From Methanobacteriota archaeon (GTDB lineage Archaea; Thermoplasmatota; Thermoplasmata; Thermoplasmatales; Aciduliprofundaceae): DNA of 38,302 nt. Position numbers and translations under genes: made by a program. Each line of letters begins with the position of its first letter. Position 1 is the stretch's first letter. Shown here one piece after another: positions 21,631 to 35,780 of the stretch. The notes beneath the pieces are model-generated. The model made no database searches and was not told where the DNA came from. It saw only the letters and a program-made list of their open reading frames with translations. The DNA lies in NCBI GenBank assembly GCA_013154005.1, contig JAADDK010000016.1, positions 1 to 38,302 on the forward strand, in the 5' to 3' direction.

Positions 21631-24600
21631 ATGACCGAGATGCTAAGGCTCCCATTTATTGGAGAGGAGCGATCAAGAATACTTCTAAAAAAAGGATATG
21701 ATTTGGAAAGAATCCGAAATTCCACTCCAGAGGAGATTTCGGAAATTCTCGGGGTATCTAAATACATAGCATTTTTAATTATAAAAGCAGCCAGAGAGAG
21801 CAACCCTGAAAACGTGCCAGATGAGCTTATTGCCGAAGAGACCCTGTGCCCGGGGTGTGGAGCAATAGTCACCGAACTGGAATATGAATGTGGATCATGT
21901 GGATATGTACTCAAAGACATAAACCCAGTGGAGTACCAAACGTATATGAGCAGATACGTAGAGCTATTTATTGAGATATCAAAAGACCCTGAAAATATAA
22001 AACTGTGGGAAGATTTGAAAAAAATTCTCGAAGCACTTGGCAACATAGAAGAGGCACTGGATGTATCCAGCAAAATTGATTACATAAAATCAGGAATAGT
22101 TCTCTCCACAAAATCAGACATGGAGGAGAAGAAGCTCCCAATTAAAGAGAGCGCTCCAAAAAAGCCAAAATTCAAAAATGGTCTCGTAAATGGGTTTGGA
22201 GTCCAGTTAATAACTGTAGAAAAACGGGTTAGAGCAAGAAGATATCTTGCCATCCTGATTGTACTGGGTATAGTAGCGGGCACATTGATAGGGCTGTACT
22301 TCATGAACTCTCCATTCAAAATAGATGGAAATTTTGATGACTGGAACAGCATACCGGGATACCACACATTCGACTCTCAAATAAAAATTTTCAAAATGGG
22401 CGAATACGGCAACAATTACTATTTCTATATAGCCGGAGACCTGTCCCTTAAACTGGGTGTATCCATATTTGTGGATTCCGATGGAAATCCTGACTCGGGA
22501 TACTGGATGGGAAGTATAGGGGCCGATTATCGACTCCTCATTCACAATATCGGAAACAAACTTCAGGGAACAATCTATTCTTTTGAAGGAAATAATCCTA
22601 CAAACTGGGCATTATGGAAAAATTCAGGTGGCTTTAAAGTGGCCGGATATCACTATGGTATAGAAATGCAGGTTCCCAAAAACATATTTACCAGAAATGC
22701 CGTGGTTATGCTGGTAGACGGCGAGCATAGAGGATACCCCATAGGTCTATTTCACCCTGTTGTGCTCGCAGAGATGGAACTGGGTGGGGGTGTGGTAAAA
22801 AACGGGACTTCAGTAGGCACACTCTACCTCAACAATACATTCAAATCACCCACAAAAATAACCTCAATATCCGTGGACAATATGGGTAATGCCAGCTCAC
22901 TTCATCTTCGGGCAATCATAGACGGAAAAGACATACCTATAAAAGATGGAAAAATACTGCTAAACTCCTCATTAATTCTGGATAAAACGAAGGTGATCCG
23001 CATTGAATATCTTGAGGGAGGCACCTCCGGGTCCACCATACGACTTTCAGTAAAAAATCTGACGGGCGTAAACTCATTTAAATTTGTGACTGGCGATGGA
23101 TATTATGTGAAAAAAGCACCTTCTGCACCAAGAATAGATGGCGTTTTTTACGACTGGGCCCCGTATCGACACAGTGCCCCAGTAAACGATTTGCCGCCCA
23201 ATGTGGACATAGTATCTTACGCCAAATATATGGCAAACAACAACTCATATTTCTATCTTCAAACCAAAGGAGAGATAGCTTCCGGAACAATCATCCCTGT
23301 GTATGGGACTACTGTAAAAGATAGTGATAGAGACACCATACCCGATAACCTTGACCCGTACCCGCACGATTTTAATAACGATGGCATACCCGATGACAAA
23401 AGTTATGTGGTAATTAACGGCACCCGGTACCCGGATGTGGACGGCGATGGCATCCCTGACTATCCACAGGGACCGGATATGTGGCTTAACACAACAATAC
23501 CCAACACCACTGCATTTCCACTGCAGTATCGGGGAAAATTCGTAAGTGTGTATATAGGACCACCAAAAGCGCCTAAACCTGAATATCCGTATGATTACAT
23601 TGAAATATACATAAGCGGCAATAATGGGTATCCCATTGGAGGCATCTATGCTCAGTATCTGTTCCGACTCTACGGACTCTCTGGCACCATCAAAGGATAC
23701 AACTTTTTGGAATACCGAAACGGTAAATTTGTAAACAAAACTCTTAGTTTCGATTTGCATACCAATATTGCCGAAGGCTGGAAACAGCTGGAGATGAAGC
23801 TTCCAATATCAATCACCGGCAGAAACGTGGTTTACAGAATTGTAAGCTATGAAAAACTATGGCAGGATACCGCGCATTTGCCATTTCAAAAATCAAATAA
23901 TATTCCCATGCCCATTCCACATACAAACAAAACCAAGCCCCAAAACTCAACAGAATACATGGCCCCAGGAAAAGACGATTTTGAAGCAGGTGCATACGGA
24001 GAATGGCTAAAACAGAAATTCGGAAATGAAGTGCGGCTCAACACGCTGACCTCTTGGATCTCATCCCTCAATCTTTCAGAGGGAGCAGAGAAAAATCATG
24101 TGTTCACCGCCAGTGATTTCATTGACGGAAACGTATCTCATTTCAAAGAGGAAAAATATGCAGCAAATAAACTCAGAGAACTGAAAAAAGAGGCACCTGA
24201 TAAACCAGTATATAGAGTGCAGTTGCTCAACGAATCAATTTTCAGAGAAGAATGGCAGAATTTAACCATCAAGACAAAAGAATGGGAGATTCTTCACTAT
24301 ACCCATGACCTTGAGAGATACCGGCTCAAGGAATTTGGTTATTTCAGGCCATACAAACCGAACTGGTACGATGCAGATGAGATAAGAACGATAGAGTGGC
24401 TTGTATATAAATTATCTGAAAATCTCTCAGATTGGCATACTGCTTTTGCGGTGGCAAAAGGTATAAAGAGTTTGGACGATGCCCGGCTCGGGCCACTTTA
24501 CATGCCTCATGCACCGAGTACTGAGCTGGGTGCGGGCACGCATGCTGTTACTGTTCATGTGGTAGATTATTACTCAGGAGAATCAGATTGCAACGGAGAA

Positions 24601-25920
24601 AACGATATATATTACTATGTGTGGATAGGCAATGAGGTATTTGAGTCCCCGGAGAGAGATGACCAGAATTCCTGGTCGGGTGATGATGCGTACACAAACT
24701 ATTCCGTGACCGGGGACACCGTTCAGATAGGAATCCATGTTTATGAAGCTGATTCTGGGTTATGCGGCAGTGATGACGATTACGGATACGTTACTTTCAC
24801 ATATAATCTTACCACAAAATTATGGTCTGGTGGAACATCCGCTCCGTATGCATACACAGATGGGCCGGATGGCTGGTGCGATGTATGGTTCCATGTGCAG
24901 AGTGATTCGGATAACAATCCCTCAACCATAAATTATGGTACAGTGGGAGCAGGAACATATGGCTACATCATCCAGGCATACAATGGCAAATCAAATTACA
25001 ACGACCCTTCAGATAACTGGACCTTTTCAATTGATTCAACACTGATCTCAACACATGCCGTTATATATGTGGGAATGGCACCCAACTCCGGCGCAAATTT
25101 CAATATCGCACTTTATGATCCCAATGGCAATGAAAAAGCATCCAGTGCAAGTGCAGGGACGGGTGGCGTGGAAAGAATATTTTACCAGCTTCAACTGGGA
25201 GATACCGCCGGAACATGGACCGCAACAGTATCCATAAATTCAACTGCGGATTACGGAGATTATTATATTTTCCTGTGGTGTGGATATAAGGTAGAATTTT
25301 ACGCTTATACAGACAATGCCGGTCCACATACCCCCATGCACAGCAACAATGGGGTTAACGTCTCCTATGTGGTGGAAGGAGTAACCCATTATGTATGGCC
25401 AAATGATGATTATTACTGGACCGTGTACGTTGACCGCGGCTCATCATACTCCTATGCTGCAGAATCCAATCTCTCCAACGATGCGGGAGGACACAGATGG
25501 ATTTCCCAGACTCCACCCTCAGGGACAATCTCTGCATCCACCACCATCACCGGGCACTACTATGAGCAGTTCTATCTAACCATTAACACCACCTACGATA
25601 CTGGCTACTCATCGGGGCAGCTTTTCGGCGCTGCTAAAAACTATTCGGCACCTGGTTCAGGCTGGTACGATGCGGGCTGTAAGGTAACTATAAAGGTGGA
25701 CTCCCCGGTATCCGACAGTAGCGGTAAAGAATTTGCGTTCACATCATGGACCGGCTCGGGCACGGGCAGTTATTCGGGCACTGCAAATCCAGCTAACTTT
25801 ACAATTCAGGACGTTACCACCGAAACCGCGAACTGGGAGCAGGTTCCAGAGTTCTCAGGGCTCGTATGGGTCGCTCCTGCTCTGGCTCTGCTGTTCATAA
25901 CACGCCGGCGTAGAAAATAA
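21631..25920 (+). CDS. Giant surface protein: cytoplasmic HhH and zinc ribbon, TM, exported beta-rich domains, Ca-binding-like repeats, PEF-CTERM-like C-terminus
   Basis: N-term LPFIGEERSRILLKKGYDLERI...CPGC-x-CGSCG; TM RYLAILIVLGIVAGTLIGLYFM (about 22240-22305); two IDGxFxDW motifs; DSDRDTIPDNLDPYPHDFNNDGIPDD; C-term VPEFSGLVWVAPALALLFITRRRRK. Confidence 0.85.
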   Translation: MTEMLRLPFIGEERSRILLKKGYDLERIRNSTPEEISEILGVSKYIAFLIIKAARESNPENVPDELIAEETLCPGCGAIVTELEYECGSCGYVLKDINPVEYQTYMSRYVELFIEISKDPENIKLWEDLKKILEALGNIEEALDVSSKIDYIKSGIVLSTKSDMEEKKLPIKESAPKKPKFKNGLVNGFGVQLITVEKRVRARRYLAILIVLGIVAGTLIGLYFMNSPFKIDGNFDDWNSIPGYHTFDSQIKIFKMGEYGNNYYFYIAGDLSLKLGVSIFVDSDGNPDSGYWMGSIGADYRLLIHNIGNKLQGTIYSFEGNNPTNWALWKNSGGFKVAGYHYGIEMQVPKNIFTRNAVVMLVDGEHRGYPIGLFHPVVLAEMELGGGVVKNGTSVGTLYLNNTFKSPTKITSISVDNMGNASSLHLRAIIDGKDIPIKDGKILLNSSLILDKTKVIRIEYLEGGTSGSTIRLSVKNLTGVNSFKFVTGDGYYVKKAPSAPRIDGVFYDWAPYRHSAPVNDLPPNVDIVSYAKYMANNNSYFYLQTKGEIASGTIIPVYGTTVKDSDRDTIPDNLDPYPHDFNNDGIPDDKSYVVINGTRYPDVDGDGIPDYPQGPDMWLNTTIPNTTAFPLQYRGKFVSVYIGPPKAPKPEYPYDYIEIYISGNNGYPIGGIYAQYLFRLYGLSGTIKGYNFLEYRNGKFVNKTLSFDLHTNIAEGWKQLEMKLPISITGRNVVYRIVSYEKLWQDTAHLPFQKSNNIPMPIPHTNKTKPQNSTEYMAPGKDDFEAGAYGEWLKQKFGNEVRLNTLTSWISSLNLSEGAEKNHVFTASDFIDGNVSHFKEEKYAANKLRELKKEAPDKPVYRVQLLNESIFREEWQNLTIKTKEWEILHYTHDLERYRLKEFGYFRPYKPNWYDADEIRTIEWLVYKLSENLSDWHTAFAVAKGIKSLDDARLGPLYMPHAPSTELGAGTHAVTVHVVDYYSGESDCNGENDIYYYVWIGNEVFESPERDDQNSWSGDDAYTNYSVTGDTVQIGIHVYEADSGLCGSDDDYGYVTFTYNLTTKLWSGGTSAPYAYTDGPDGWCDVWFHVQSDSDNNPSTINYGTVGAGTYGYIIQAYNGKSNYNDPSDNWTFSIDSTLISTHAVIYVGMAPNSGANFNIALYDPNGNEKASSASAGTGGVERIFYQLQLGDTAGTWTATVSINSTADYGDYYIFLWCGYKVEFYAYTDNAGPHTPMHSNNGVNVSYVVEGVTHYVWPNDDYYWTVYVDRGSSYSYAAESNLSNDAGGHRWISQTPPSGTISASTTITGHYYEQFYLTINTTYDTGYSSGQLFGAAKNYSAPGSGWYDAGCKVTIKVDSPVSDSSGKEFAFTSWTGSGTGSYSGTANPANFTIQDVTTETANWEQVPEFSGLVWVAPALALLFITRRRRK

Positions 25921-29988: not shown

Positions 29989-30084
29989 TGGGTCAAGTTG
30001 TCGTTGACTTAATTTGTGGTGTTTGCGAGATATTGGGGGTTATGGAGGTATATTTATCATACAGTGCACATGGGGTGGTAATGA

Positions 30085-30540
30085 ATGTATAAAGAAAATG
30101 CAACCTCTGGTTTCTTCGAAGAAATAATTTTGTTCGCGGTAGTAAGTATCCTGTTTGTATCATCTATAACATTCGCCGCATATTACAGCGCAATGAAAGC
30201 CACTGAGTACCAGAAAGAAGAACTTGTTAACGAGGTATACAATTTTGTAATGAAAGTAATGGGATACCAGCCACTGATACACAACGGTGTGGAAGGGCTA
30301 TTTGATTATCATAAAATTAAAAGTGTAACCATGGAGGACCTTAAAAAGGATCTCACACCAAACTTCAAATTTTCAATGACCATAGAAGATGTAAGTGATT
30401 ACTATCATTATTCCAAAAAATGGGGTAATATAAGCAACTCCTATGGATATTACAGGGTGGTTGTCATTTACCCCGTGGACATATGGGTAAGCGACCATGA
30501 AATTCATGCGGCTAAGTTAGAGGTGGTAGCATGGAGGTAG
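30085..30540 (+). CDS. Pilin-like/TadE-like exported protein
   Basis: Short hydrophilic N-terminus NATSGFFEEIILFAVVSILFVSSITFAAYY then an extracellular-type region; overlaps the next gene. Confidence 0.65.
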   Translation: MYKENATSGFFEEIILFAVVSILFVSSITFAAYYSAMKATEYQKEELVNEVYNFVMKVMGYQPLIHNGVEGLFDYHKIKSVTMEDLKKDLTPNFKFSMTIEDVSDYYHYSKKWGNISNSYGYYRVVVIYPVDIWVSDHEIHAAKLEVVAWR

Positions 30541-31046
30541 ATCGGGGACAGTCTGCAGTTATAGATGCTGCGCTTATCGCACCAATTCTTGTTCTGATAC
30601 TCCTGATGGGCTATGTAATAGTATCTTCAAATACGTCGGTATTCATGCTGGAAAAAAACGAAGTTAGGTACACCCAGGATTTAACATATGCAGTTCTTAA
30701 ATCAACCGTGCGATATGTATGGTACGATACCACCTCTGGACAGAAAATAATCTTAGAGGATAAAACAGTGGAGCATCTCATATCCGAGGATTTGTACTTA
30801 CGTGAGCATGGCGATGTATGGATACCTTCTCTCAGAACGGGGCTGGAAAGCAAAATAGATACTATTCTCTACAACCTCACCACCCCAATATACAGATATT
30901 CCTTACATGCCTCGTATCATAATGTAAGTTTTTACATAGGCGCAAAATATCTGCCTGCAAACCGTATGAGCTATACCACATATATCGATATGCCCACTAA
31001 TAATGATAAAGCAACCATAACACTATATGTATGGAGGGTGAGTTAA
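30531..31046 (+). CDS. Pilin-like/TadE-like exported protein
   Basis: MEVDRGQSAVIDAALIAPILVLILLMGYVIVSS: class III signal-peptide-like RG/QSAV followed by a hydrophobic helix. Confidence 0.7.
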   Translation: MEVDRGQSAVIDAALIAPILVLILLMGYVIVSSNTSVFMLEKNEVRYTQDLTYAVLKSTVRYVWYDTTSGQKIILEDKTVEHLISEDLYLREHGDVWIPSLRTGLESKIDTILYNLTTPIYRYSLHASYHNVSFYIGAKYLPANRMSYTTYIDMPTNNDKATITLYVWRVS

Positions 31047-34000
31047 ATGAAAATAATAAAAAAGGAGGGTGGAAGAATACCGTTTGCGTATGTGTTTGCC
31101 ATAATATTTGTGCTTATGCTTTTACTGGCGGGCATATACGCAAGTATACTGGGCAGACATAATATAATAAGCATAGATAAATTCTATAAGGAATCGGACC
31201 AGGACCTTAGAAACATAAATGATATGGTAAGAGAGAAAGCGTACCACAGTCTGATGGAAATCATACATAATATAACGAAACAGAGAGATCCCAAGTTGTA
31301 TATGATTCAAAAATATTTAGAACAAAACATGTCAAATTACATAAATGCCACATTTCCTATAATAACCCAGGATTACGTCGTGAAAGTTGATAATTATACT
31401 GTAAAAGTGGTTATGGATTACAAAAAAACAAAAGCTTTTATAAAAGATTTTAAACTAAAATGGATAGACTATACTTACGGACTGGACAATCTTCAGGAGG
31501 GATATAAAAAGCAAACTCAGTTACCCGTATACCCATATGTGGTGGGATACTTCAATTACACATTTAAGGATAGACGTAGCGGATTCGTAATGAAAAGATT
31601 AATGAAGTTCAATCGTATCGTATATTCCCCACTTCCACTTTTAAAATTCGAATTTGATGAATTCAGAACCTCCACCACCAACGCGGGAGACTTTGGGAGA
31701 CTTATCAAATATATTCTTACAACGATAACCGAATACCGCATACTTATAGGCGATGCTGCGGGGCAATATGGTGGATATAACGTTTCGGTTACCCAGGTAT
31801 TAACAAAAGCAGATGTGGAAAAGGCAGTGAATCTTGCCCTGCTCTTAGAAAGTGTACGTTATTTTGGAACGTATGATAAGAACACCGCAGCTAAAATGGG
31901 TATCGGCACGATTATCGACCAGTATCTTAAAAAGGGAACCATTGACGCTGCGGATATCTATTTCCTCTGGAACCATATGAATTCATACGTATGGGCAAAT
32001 CGCATACTGGGTCAGAGCATATACAGCTATGCAGATAGATTCGTTTACGAATTACTACGAGAATTCTGGACAAACAATGATCTGTACGCAGACCCAACGC
32101 TTAAAGAACCTCTGCTTAACTGGGAAAAAATAAAACAGAAAGGTGACGACTGGATTAAGGATATGCTGGCCAAGTATCTGGACGTGTGGCGAGGCTGGCT
32201 TCAAATACCTAAAATAATTATACCTCACTACGCAAAAGTAGACATCACTGAGAAATTTGACATAGTAATCATACTGCCCAAACCCCCATACATCATATAT
32301 GAACCAGACCAGACAGTTACATTGCACTGGGTAATATGGAACATGCCTGTGGAAAATACCGTGGACCTGATACTCGGACCCAAACCTAAAAACTTCGAAC
32401 TTTATGCCCTGGGAACCTCCACAGATCCGCCATATGTACATATCGGCCATTATCAATATCAGCTAGTAAAGCAATCATTTATAGAAGAGCATCAGCATTA
32501 CAAAGGAGGCAGTGATCCATATCTTAGTACGTTGGAGTATGTGATGGATGCACTTACCAGGTCTATGAAAAAGAGGTCAAATACATGGGATAATACCTCC
32601 CAGAAAGGATTCATAGATTTTGCGGCCTATGATGCTTCCATGTTAAGTTATATCGATAACCGCAATATAAACCTGGCCGGAAATCCAAAAGACGAAAATA
32701 CAATATTAATAAACGGCACCCAGGAAATAGTTAACGGGCCGCTGACCCAGGCGTCAAATACATTTTCAAAATGGATATATCCGCTGAAAGAAACATGGTG
32801 GAAGTATGGTGCATATAGAGAAAATTCGACAGGAGATAACGATGCATATCTTTATTACCTTACAAAAGACACCGTCGATCTGTGGTATCAGGCAATGAAA
32901 AATCTATATGACGGCGGAGATCCCTCACATACAGACGATGCAGGACCTTATGACTCAGACTGTAATCATTATCCATCTCATCATCAGGTCAGCACATGGC
33001 CCACACCGTACTCCGGCTATCCATTCTATGGAGTGGGAAACCACAACGGCTCATTTAATTTTCATAGAGATCTTACCCGTGATGCGTACAACGATATAAG
33101 AGAGCTTATGTGGGAAAAAGCCATTGAAAAAGGACTCGAAAAAGGAGGTGTGGGAATTCCCATATACAGCCACGAAAACGTATGGAACGATGTCAAACAG
33201 AAAACGGAAGATGCAAGACAGAAAGTGGTGGGTCAAGATGGACTTATAAAAAATCTGAATTTCTGGTTCTGGCCATACGTATATTTCAACAAGGCATATT
33301 TCATAGTAAAACAATTTGGAGATTTACGAACGTTTATGGATTACATAACTGACAATGGATCATACAAATCAAAGAGCGATTCAGATTTATCTAATTTCTA
33401 TAAGTTTGTAAGGTGGCGTGTAGGATTACCAATCTTGGGAATAGCTGGATTACCACCCGTAAACCCGGGAAACAGCAGTGGAGGCGGTGGAGGAAATAAT
33501 ACCACCCATGTTACCGGACTGGGGCTGGACGTATCGCATTATCAGGGAACAATAGACTGGACAAAGGTACGCAACGCAGGATACACCTTTGTATTTGTAA
33601 AGGCAAGTCAGGGTACAAGTTATGTGGATCCTCTGTTCTCCACCAATGTCCAGGGTGCGAGTGCGGCAGGACTGAAAGTGGGAGCATATCACTTTGCAGA
33701 ACCAAGTGATGACCCAATTGCAGAAGCTGACCATTTTGTAGATGTGATTAAACCTTACCTTAGTTACATGTCACTGCCACCGGCACTGGATCTGGAGCAA
33801 ACAGGAGGTTTGAGCTGGAGCGCACTAAGCAATTGGGCGAATGAATTCGAGAAAGAAGTGCAGGCTAAAACAGGAATTACGCCGATAATTTACGTTAATG
33901 TGAATTATGCCACAAACTTAGATTCATCAGTCACACAGTGGCCACTATGGATTGCAGACTGGACATACAATCCAAATGCCACACCCAGAACAGGAAAATG

Positions 34001-35780
34001 GAGCTCATGGAGCTTTTGGCAGTACAGTGATAGCGGATCAGTACCAGGAATTGCAGGAAGCAGTGTTGATCTGGACAAGGCATCAGGCAGAACTTTAGAG
34101 ATGCTGTACAGTATAAGAGCGGGATCATCCTACTCCGTAAATGGACTTCTGGGAGAACTAGCAAAATGGATTCCAAACTCATATCAGGTTATGGAAAAGA
34201 ACATAATTCTCAACGCAAGATACAGTTCCATTCCAATATTCCCCTCTGTCCACTCCAATCGCCACATATTCTGGGACACCACTCATTTCCAGGACGCAAA
34301 CATGCATAGGACAAAGAACGAAACCGTGTGGGTGGATTTCCAGCCAGATTACCTTGAAGCGGGAAAGAATCTCAATATAGGCATATCTCTCGGACCCGGC
34401 CACAAGTTTGTAGATGTGCAGGATACAGATTATGATATGAGCGAAGCACCGTACGAGTATCAGTACACAGTAACCATATCCGGCACACTGAATCTGAATC
34501 TTCACACAGATCGCACATCTCTGGTATATGGAGGGATACACTGGCTCACGTGGTACAACGGCACAGTGCCAATTAACCTGAACATTAAAGTGCCCATTTA
34601 TTCGGCATGGTTCCTGGAGTCACACTGGAACAGTTGCACCGCGGCGGATAACTGGGCATTTCACACAGATGTCCCATTCAGTTACACTCGCGGCTACTTC
34701 AATATGCTTGGCAAAGATTCACCAACCAAGCCGTTCTTCATAAGCCAGCCACTCAATACATTTATATACGACTACGAGAAGATTGGCGAGGTGTGGAACA
34801 GATATGCGACATTCACCAACTTCGCGCTGATCAACATAAAAGACGAGCTTGCTGCATGGAATTACACCTATCACAGAATAATCACCAACGCGACCAAAGA
34901 GGTAGCCACCGGGATAAATGCCGCATCATCGGGCTTCAGCACTGCCCAGAATGACCTCAACAACGTATTTGCAAAGGCTAACGGGTACACAAATCAGCTA
35001 CACTTTTTCTACTTCTCACGTGATTTCACGGTGACAAGTTCACAGGTACAGGAAAACAACGGATACCGACAGTTCAACGTGAATTTAGGCAGCAAAACGG
35101 TGCAGGAAAAGTATCAGGAAGGCAAATATTCGGTGCAGGGTCAGCTTTCAGGAAGCGGTGTGAATTTACAGATGAGCAATTACTACGACTACATGCATAT
35201 CAGCTTGAGTATAAAAACAGGGTCAATTACCCCGTATTTCCTATCGTACCACAATATAAGCGGAGGCAGGTCAGTGCGAATGTATGTAGAACGTTTAGAT
35301 AATGTGCTTAAAACCGACTTTGGACTTGTAGGAGATAGCAGTGCAATCAACAACCTTGCAAAGTATTTTCCAAAAAATATCACATATCTAACTCAGGAAT
35401 CATTGATAAAAGTATTCCATCAGATTCTGAAAGATATATACGTAAACGAGACCATTAGCTACAGATTTGGAATATTTGTAAATCTGATAGGCGGAAATCA
35501 GCGCCTTACTTATATTATATGGTACAATGGAACACCCACTCCAGACTCGTTTATTATCTGGCTCAACAACGAAATAAGACCCATTGTCTACGAGCTGGGA
35601 ATATCAGAGTTCCCACAGTACAGTTATGATTTACTGACACTGAATAACATATATTACTCAGTAAACAATCTGTGGATGGACACAGACTACGACTCTTCAT
35701 CGATATTTGGATACGCAACACAGGGTCACGCACGTGCAGCGTGGGACGGATACGTGATAGAAATGTCCTATCATCTCTGA
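31047..35780 (+). CDS. 1577-aa exported protein with N-terminal TM and internal GH25 lysozyme domain
   Basis: N-term IPFAYVFAIIFVLMLLLAGIYASIL; GH25 motifs GLDVSHYQGTIDWTKVRNAGYTFVFVKASQG, GAYHFAEP, PPALDLEQTG, YVNVNYA, LWIADW, WQYSDSGSVPGIAGSSVDLDKA. Confidence 0.93.
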   Translation: MKIIKKEGGRIPFAYVFAIIFVLMLLLAGIYASILGRHNIISIDKFYKESDQDLRNINDMVREKAYHSLMEIIHNITKQRDPKLYMIQKYLEQNMSNYINATFPIITQDYVVKVDNYTVKVVMDYKKTKAFIKDFKLKWIDYTYGLDNLQEGYKKQTQLPVYPYVVGYFNYTFKDRRSGFVMKRLMKFNRIVYSPLPLLKFEFDEFRTSTTNAGDFGRLIKYILTTITEYRILIGDAAGQYGGYNVSVTQVLTKADVEKAVNLALLLESVRYFGTYDKNTAAKMGIGTIIDQYLKKGTIDAADIYFLWNHMNSYVWANRILGQSIYSYADRFVYELLREFWTNNDLYADPTLKEPLLNWEKIKQKGDDWIKDMLAKYLDVWRGWLQIPKIIIPHYAKVDITEKFDIVIILPKPPYIIYEPDQTVTLHWVIWNMPVENTVDLILGPKPKNFELYALGTSTDPPYVHIGHYQYQLVKQSFIEEHQHYKGGSDPYLSTLEYVMDALTRSMKKRSNTWDNTSQKGFIDFAAYDASMLSYIDNRNINLAGNPKDENTILINGTQEIVNGPLTQASNTFSKWIYPLKETWWKYGAYRENSTGDNDAYLYYLTKDTVDLWYQAMKNLYDGGDPSHTDDAGPYDSDCNHYPSHHQVSTWPTPYSGYPFYGVGNHNGSFNFHRDLTRDAYNDIRELMWEKAIEKGLEKGGVGIPIYSHENVWNDVKQKTEDARQKVVGQDGLIKNLNFWFWPYVYFNKAYFIVKQFGDLRTFMDYITDNGSYKSKSDSDLSNFYKFVRWRVGLPILGIAGLPPVNPGNSSGGGGGNNTTHVTGLGLDVSHYQGTIDWTKVRNAGYTFVFVKASQGTSYVDPLFSTNVQGASAAGLKVGAYHFAEPSDDPIAEADHFVDVIKPYLSYMSLPPALDLEQTGGLSWSALSNWANEFEKEVQAKTGITPIIYVNVNYATNLDSSVTQWPLWIADWTYNPNATPRTGKWSSWSFWQYSDSGSVPGIAGSSVDLDKASGRTLEMLYSIRAGSSYSVNGLLGELAKWIPNSYQVMEKNIILNARYSSIPIFPSVHSNRHIFWDTTHFQDANMHRTKNETVWVDFQPDYLEAGKNLNIGISLGPGHKFVDVQDTDYDMSEAPYEYQYTVTISGTLNLNLHTDRTSLVYGGIHWLTWYNGTVPINLNIKVPIYSAWFLESHWNSCTAADNWAFHTDVPFSYTRGYFNMLGKDSPTKPFFISQPLNTFIYDYEKIGEVWNRYATFTNFALINIKDELAAWNYTYHRIITNATKEVATGINAASSGFSTAQNDLNNVFAKANGYTNQLHFFYFSRDFTVTSSQVQENNGYRQFNVNLGSKTVQEKYQEGKYSVQGQLSGSGVNLQMSNYYDYMHISLSIKTGSITPYFLSYHNISGGRSVRMYVERLDNVLKTDFGLVGDSSAINNLAKYFPKNITYLTQESLIKVFHQILKDIYVNETISYRFGIFVNLIGGNQRLTYIIWYNGTPTPDSFIIWLNNEIRPIVYELGISEFPQYSYDLLTLNNIYYSVNNLWMDTDYDSSSIFGYATQGHARAAWDGYVIEMSYHL
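33516..34110 (+). other. GH25 (muramidase) domain coding region within the 31047-35780 gene
   Basis: Conserved GH25 motifs from GLGLDVSHYQG to SVDLDKASGR; preceded by linker NPGNSSGGGGGNNTTHVT. Confidence 0.93.

Follow-up and report, generated by a model that had tools for sequence, protein, structure and literature searches.

The stretch of DNA analysed here, referred to below as the window, is 38,302 nucleotides long and is contig C118 of a 1.64-Mb genome in 135 contigs. The host is an archaeon from a deep-sea vent and has no peptidoglycan of its own. The genes and features with which we are concerned are as follows.

30085..30540, + strand: P1, a 151-residue pilin-like protein with one N-terminal hydrophobic helix and a ..TSGFFEE.. 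motif
30531..31046, + strand: P2, a 171-residue pilin-like protein with a class-III-like site, RG/QSAVID
31047..35780, + strand: P3, a giant pilin-like subunit of 1577 residues, with a DUF7286-related scaffold and an internal GH25 domain
31065..31155, + strand: N-terminal segment of P3 (GGRIPFAYVF...), with a prepilin-like site and hydrophobic helix
33444..33515, + strand: G/N/S-rich linker preceding the GH25 domain of P3
33516..34091, + strand: GH25 muramidase domain of P3 (residues 824-1015), with D828, D915, E917 and D1008 conserved as catalytic residues
34167..35780, + strand: P3 residues 1041-1577, the C-terminal half of the scaffold, which in homologues lacking GH25 follows on directly from the N-terminal half

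The P1-P2-P3 operon

The initial annotation had described three co-oriented genes that overlap or abut, each beginning with one long hydrophobic helix, and the open reading frames lie exactly where it had placed them, P1 and P2 overlapping by 10 nt. In each product there is a single 19-mer of strong hydrophobicity, beginning at residue 6 in P1, 5 in P2 and 7 in P3; such a single N-terminal hydrophobic stretch is found in just one of the 31 other genes of the window. The RGQSAVID motif reported for the second gene is present at residues 5-12 of P2. Judged by eye, there are putative class III sites at RG/QSAVID in P2 and at GG/RIPFA in P3, and the same motif would put an alanine at the presumed -1 position of P1, where the orthologues have glycine. 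Also by eye, a TATA-like element (TATATTTATC) and a purine-rich one (GGGGTGGT) can be discerned upstream of P1, at window positions 30049-30079.

P1, P2 and the scaffold proper cannot be named with confidence from Pfam or NCBIfam. P2 scores 13.5 bits against TadE (PF07811), under the cut-off of 22.9, and a weak, sub-threshold match to TadE occurs in register in all six P2 orthologues; P3 of the window scores 11.4 bits against DUF7286 (PF23957), under the cut-off of 27. Among 20 homologous scaffolds, DUF7286 is matched by seven (best E 7e-7) and LTD by ten, and a P1 homologue from another family has a weak match to DUF7287. The DUF7286 family is also found in Haloferax volcanii and Methanosarcina acetivorans. 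The structure predicted for P2 (pLDDT 85) consists of a 53-residue N-terminal helix followed by an alpha/beta head, and that for residues 1-818 of P3, which is of moderate confidence (76), begins with a 65-residue helix. When the P2 model was compared with solved structures using Foldseek, most of the hits were ribosomal proteins with E > 0.006 and none had E <= 0.001; the best hit to the scaffold model had E 0.47 and was taken as no match. Solved structures were also searched by sequence, with no hit for the scaffold and nothing above noise for P2. Since neither model matched any solved structure at E <= 0.001, it is their anatomy that suggests a pilin fold for P2 and P3: a long helix and a head are seen in the P2 model, and a known pilin fold was not confirmed by Foldseek.

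P1, P2 and P3 occur together in six DHVE2-group vent genomes of the genus (that of the window and five others), in which the 10-nt overlap is kept, and a further congeneric contig, cut within P3, also carries the P3 GH25 domain. Because gene order, overlap and the P3 GH25 recur among congeneric genomes, the operon is more than a chance arrangement. P3 is present in seven of the eight genomes of the genus and absent from the other family members searched; its orthologues, at 56-63% identity, keep the same continuous frame in seven genomes that were assembled separately. When 300 sampled Thermoplasmata genomes were searched with a profile built from P3 residues 1-818, the scaffold was found in 102 of them, covering 44 of 91 genera, in proteins that are mostly 1300-2000 residues long. 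P1-P2-P3 operons free of GH25 occur across the class Thermoplasmata, and both P1- and P2-like genes stand directly upstream of the scaffold in several of the loci examined.

A possible companion is encoded elsewhere in the window (21631-25920, + strand). This is a 1429-residue surface protein with an HHH and zinc-ribbon start and a PEF-CTERM-like tail, of which residues 783-1211 share 43-49% identity with the product of a fourth operon gene, with LTD and Ig-like domains, in the congeneric genomes G003 and G006. Its membership of the operon system is uncertain.

The muramidase domain of P3

That the third gene encodes 1577 residues with a GH25 domain in the interior, as the initial annotation had it, is confirmed by a Pfam match at residues 828-1002 (PF01183, E 2e-50, 172 bits against a cut-off of 27). 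The catalytic D, D-x-E and D of the family are all present in P3, and the catalytic acids are intact in all nine GH25 domains found on giant subunits. In the comparison of G002 with G007, GH25 has a dN/dS of about 0.025 and the scaffold one of 0.033-0.035. At the level of sequence, the active site is thus intact and under purifying selection.

Scaffolds without GH25 run straight through its position when aligned with P3, and because these homologues are continuous across the site, the domain in P3 is a clean insertion. A different arrangement occurs in another order (G144 and G138), where GH25 is at the C-terminus of the scaffold, after a polyproline linker; G144 also has a second scaffold copy, a GH25-free paralogue that stops just short of the GH25 position. 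In the GH25 tree, the giant domains of the window's genus form one clade (100/99) with the pro-kumamolisin/GH25 protein of G003 as its neighbour, the domains of G144 and G138 group with secreted-type GH25 proteins of family f15 (92/85), and lysozymes of the A. boonei family are among the closest relatives. A single fusion origin for all the giant GH25 domains was rejected by an AU test (p = 0.019, a result of moderate strength). GH25 joined the scaffold at least twice, internally in this genus and C-terminally in the other order.

GH25 is rare in the class Thermoplasmata, occurring in 24 of 400 genomes. Other arrangements of the domain were seen. A 1207-residue protein cut by a contig end (L044:2-3622, - strand) has a pro-kumamolisin-type protease start, a fibronectin-like end and two GH25 domains, the second without D-x-E, and multidomain GH25 proteins whose N-termini resemble signal peptides are numerous in the f15 genomes (L120-L136).

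The GH25 domain of P3 had been tied in the initial annotation to the lysozyme described by Metcalf et al., and this link did not hold. That lysozyme is encoded in A. boonei by a 1725-bp gene adjoining App-1 (PMC4241558). In genome G011, which we infer to be A. boonei, a 574-residue GH25 gene adjoins a macro-domain-like gene, which fits the description of Metcalf et al.; P3 is a separate protein of 1577 residues with an internal GH25. The counterpart in the window genome is on contig C50 (L002:481-2133, - strand) and encodes 550 residues with GH25, amidase and SH3 domains. It is this protein, and not P3, that is of the A. boonei type (about 570 residues, GH25 near the N-terminus). Its end, a hydrophobic segment and a basic tail, may anchor it at the surface. 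Both the operon and the C91-type ATPase described below are absent from A. boonei, and Aciduliprofundum is without the operon.

A pilus-type machine in the same genome

The initial annotation had proposed that the genome be searched for a PilB/TadA-type ATPase, PilC/TadC and a prepilin peptidase, and such a search found all of them, on contigs C91, C66 and C108. The ATPase on C91 matches TIGR03819 (E 1e-38, below the model's own cut-off) and T2SSE (3e-16, above the Pfam cut-off), and adjoins a TadC-like protein whose match to T2SSF (E 0.005) is below the cut-off; C108 carries further ATPases and a TadC above the cut-off. The genome therefore has both a TadA/PilB-class ATPase and a TadC-like platform protein, two components expected of a type IV filament system. 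The peptidase, encoded on C66, is an archaeal A24 enzyme (Arc_PepC_II, E 3.5e-14, above the cut-off).

There is evidence that this machinery belongs with the operon. T2SSE ATPases are found about 6-10 kb from giant subunits in several f15 genomes and in G104 of family f12, and in the loci examined the ATPase, TadC, P1, P2 and the giant cluster with further pilin-like genes having N-terminal helices. The ATPases of the f15 and f12 loci and the C91 ATPase of the window genome form one clade in the ATPase tree (100/100), far from the C108 and C69 ATPases of the same genome. Every one of the eight genomes of the genus has a C91-type ATPase, at 77-81% identity. None was found in the other members of the family and order that were searched, where the only related ATPases are paralogues at about 25-30% identity. 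In G002, the ATPase and the operon share a contig, about 7 kb apart. Counted against the filament reading are the alanine in P1, the sub-threshold TadE and DUF7286 scores and the lack of a match between the P2 and P3 models and any solved pilin, and also that ATPase and operon sit on different contigs in the window genome and that G004 has the C91-type ATPase and lacks P3. The separate contigs are, in our view, no objection because, as Makarova et al. note (PMC4858521), the ATPase/TadC modules of archaea can work with pilins from another locus.

It was also observed that, in G011, a macro-domain gene and the lysozyme gene stand beside S8e-like and SRP19-like genes (L046 5745-8035); the corresponding slot in the window genome (L050 2285-6817) holds the ATPase/TadC pair instead. 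A candidate major pilin is encoded beside the C91 TadC, at L050:6822-7298.

Possible function and comparison with known systems

We consider it reasonably probable that P1-P2-P3 encodes the minor pilins, two of them small and one a giant that carries GH25, of a dedicated TadA/TadC-type filament belonging to the archaeal type IV class. The N-terminal helices of the three proteins would be processed by the A24 (FlaK/PibD-type) peptidase of the genome; bundled as a heterotrimer at the end of the filament or close to it, they would be pushed outward by the TadA ATPase of C91 type together with its TadC. The giant subunit has, in this genus, received a GH25 muramidase of bacterial type, inserted into its exposed part; displayed at the cell surface or at the end of the filament, the enzyme could cut the peptidoglycan of neighbouring bacteria, be it for antagonism, feeding or both. 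On sequence grounds, GH25 appears to be grafted on a giant pilus-machine subunit in an archaeon without peptidoglycan, and the lysozyme is likely to be brought to neighbouring bacteria by a pilus-type surface machine. The more specific proposal of a contact-dependent antibacterial archaeal pilus, with the muramidase on an end-located giant minor pilin and the weapon arisen independently at least twice by GH25 grafting, is put forward tentatively. The delivery idea of the initial annotation is well supported because the operon is conserved, the machine is in the genome and linked loci exist in other families; pilin-like partners, a giant scaffold with an intact muramidase and a matching machine were all found. 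Its interpretation as a whole is supported in part, and it is the connection with the lysozyme of Metcalf et al. that fell away.

The muramidase might serve for scavenging on peptidoglycan and dead bacteria rather than for killing live competitors, which would fit the same delivery machine and is quite conceivable, if short of an even chance. Since peptides are metabolised by strains of Aciduliprofundum, Metcalf et al. (PMC4241558) suggested a nutritive role for the enzyme of A. boonei, and one congener joins a pro-kumamolisin-type protease domain to GH25 in one protein. Against this, the GH25 domain of the A. boonei lysozyme is lethal to Firmicutes, and expression of the lysozyme gene rises in coculture (PMC4241558), evidence that holds nothing specific to P3. 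It is unlikely, as we see it, that P1-P2-P3 is a non-filamentous, membrane-anchored complex in which the helices stay in the membrane and the muramidase is held just above the S-layer: the single N-terminal helices, the missing fold match to pilins and the detachment of the window operon from the ATPase locus would suit such a complex, whereas homologous operons lie inside TadA/TadC loci of two other families, and ATPase and P3 co-occur at genus level. Still less credible is a GH25 that is solely a peptidoglycan-binding adhesion module. There are known pilins that bear a grafted adhesive domain (PMC10191384), and other scaffolds of the same family carry LTD domains, but the catalytic acids are kept in every giant GH25 domain, and their absence from a tandem GH25 copy in G003 shows that elsewhere such a loss can be tolerated. 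An assembly or annotation chimera, which might be suspected because the titled genomes of the genus are metagenome assemblies, can practically be dismissed, being refuted by the P3 orthologues in one frame across seven separate assemblies, and an independent C-terminal version exists elsewhere.

If the filament reading is right, P3 would be a type IV filament subunit with a grafted wall-degrading enzyme, an arrangement that arose twice, and a role is suggested for a giant uncharacterised family encoded by roughly one in three of the Thermoplasmata genomes sampled. We found no literature on DUF7286, on a DHVE2 lysozyme or on archaeal type IV pili with a peptidoglycan-cutting glycoside hydrolase.

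The closest parallel in anatomy is provided by the Kil pili of Myxococcus xanthus, which have TadEFG-type Tip complexes with a variable domain exposed on the large subunit and kill prey on contact (PMC12075869). In both systems, two smaller pilin-like subunits and a large one go with a Tad-type machine, and the large subunit has an extra exposed domain; the likeness is one of anatomy, the sub-threshold TadE match of P2 being all that was seen in sequence. A role against bacteria has been demonstrated for Kil and is proposed for P1-P2-P3; in the case of P3 the host is an archaeon and the subunit itself includes the enzyme. Because neither 'hydrolase' nor 'peptidoglycan' occurs in the text of PMC12075869, we regard a wall-cutting domain on Kil tips as undescribed. 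The euryarchaeal clade 2 type IV pili, which include the PilB4 type of H. volcanii, have their own pilin set with an ATPase/TadC module and pilins sometimes encoded in trans, as in the window genome; in the part of the source available (Makarova 2016, PMC4858521) no muramidase is described for them, unlike P3. The DUF7285-7287 families provide a further likeness, DUF7286 being matched by scaffold homologues and DUF7287, weakly, by a P1 homologue. Modular pilins such as PilB and PilC of Streptococcus sanguinis (PMC10191384) resemble P3 in having a foreign domain grafted on a pilin, with the difference that their domains are adhesive and that of P3 is an intact glycoside hydrolase.

Two archaeal systems share the enzyme rather than the machine. 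The A. boonei lysozyme has a related GH25 domain; unlike P3, it has this near the N-terminus, and its C50 counterpart is without adjoining pilin-like partners. Woldo and Danwoldo (PMC12352652) are, like P3, archaeal enzymes directed at the bacterial wall, but they have Tat signal peptides and are secreted into the supernatant, and the word 'pilin' is absent from the main text of that paper. Of the archaeal peptidoglycan hydrolases surveyed there, two thirds have no recognised signal peptide, which leaves open how they exit the cell (PMC12352652). For such enzymes a muramidase carried in a pilus-type subunit, as proposed for P3, would be a concrete and testable exit route.
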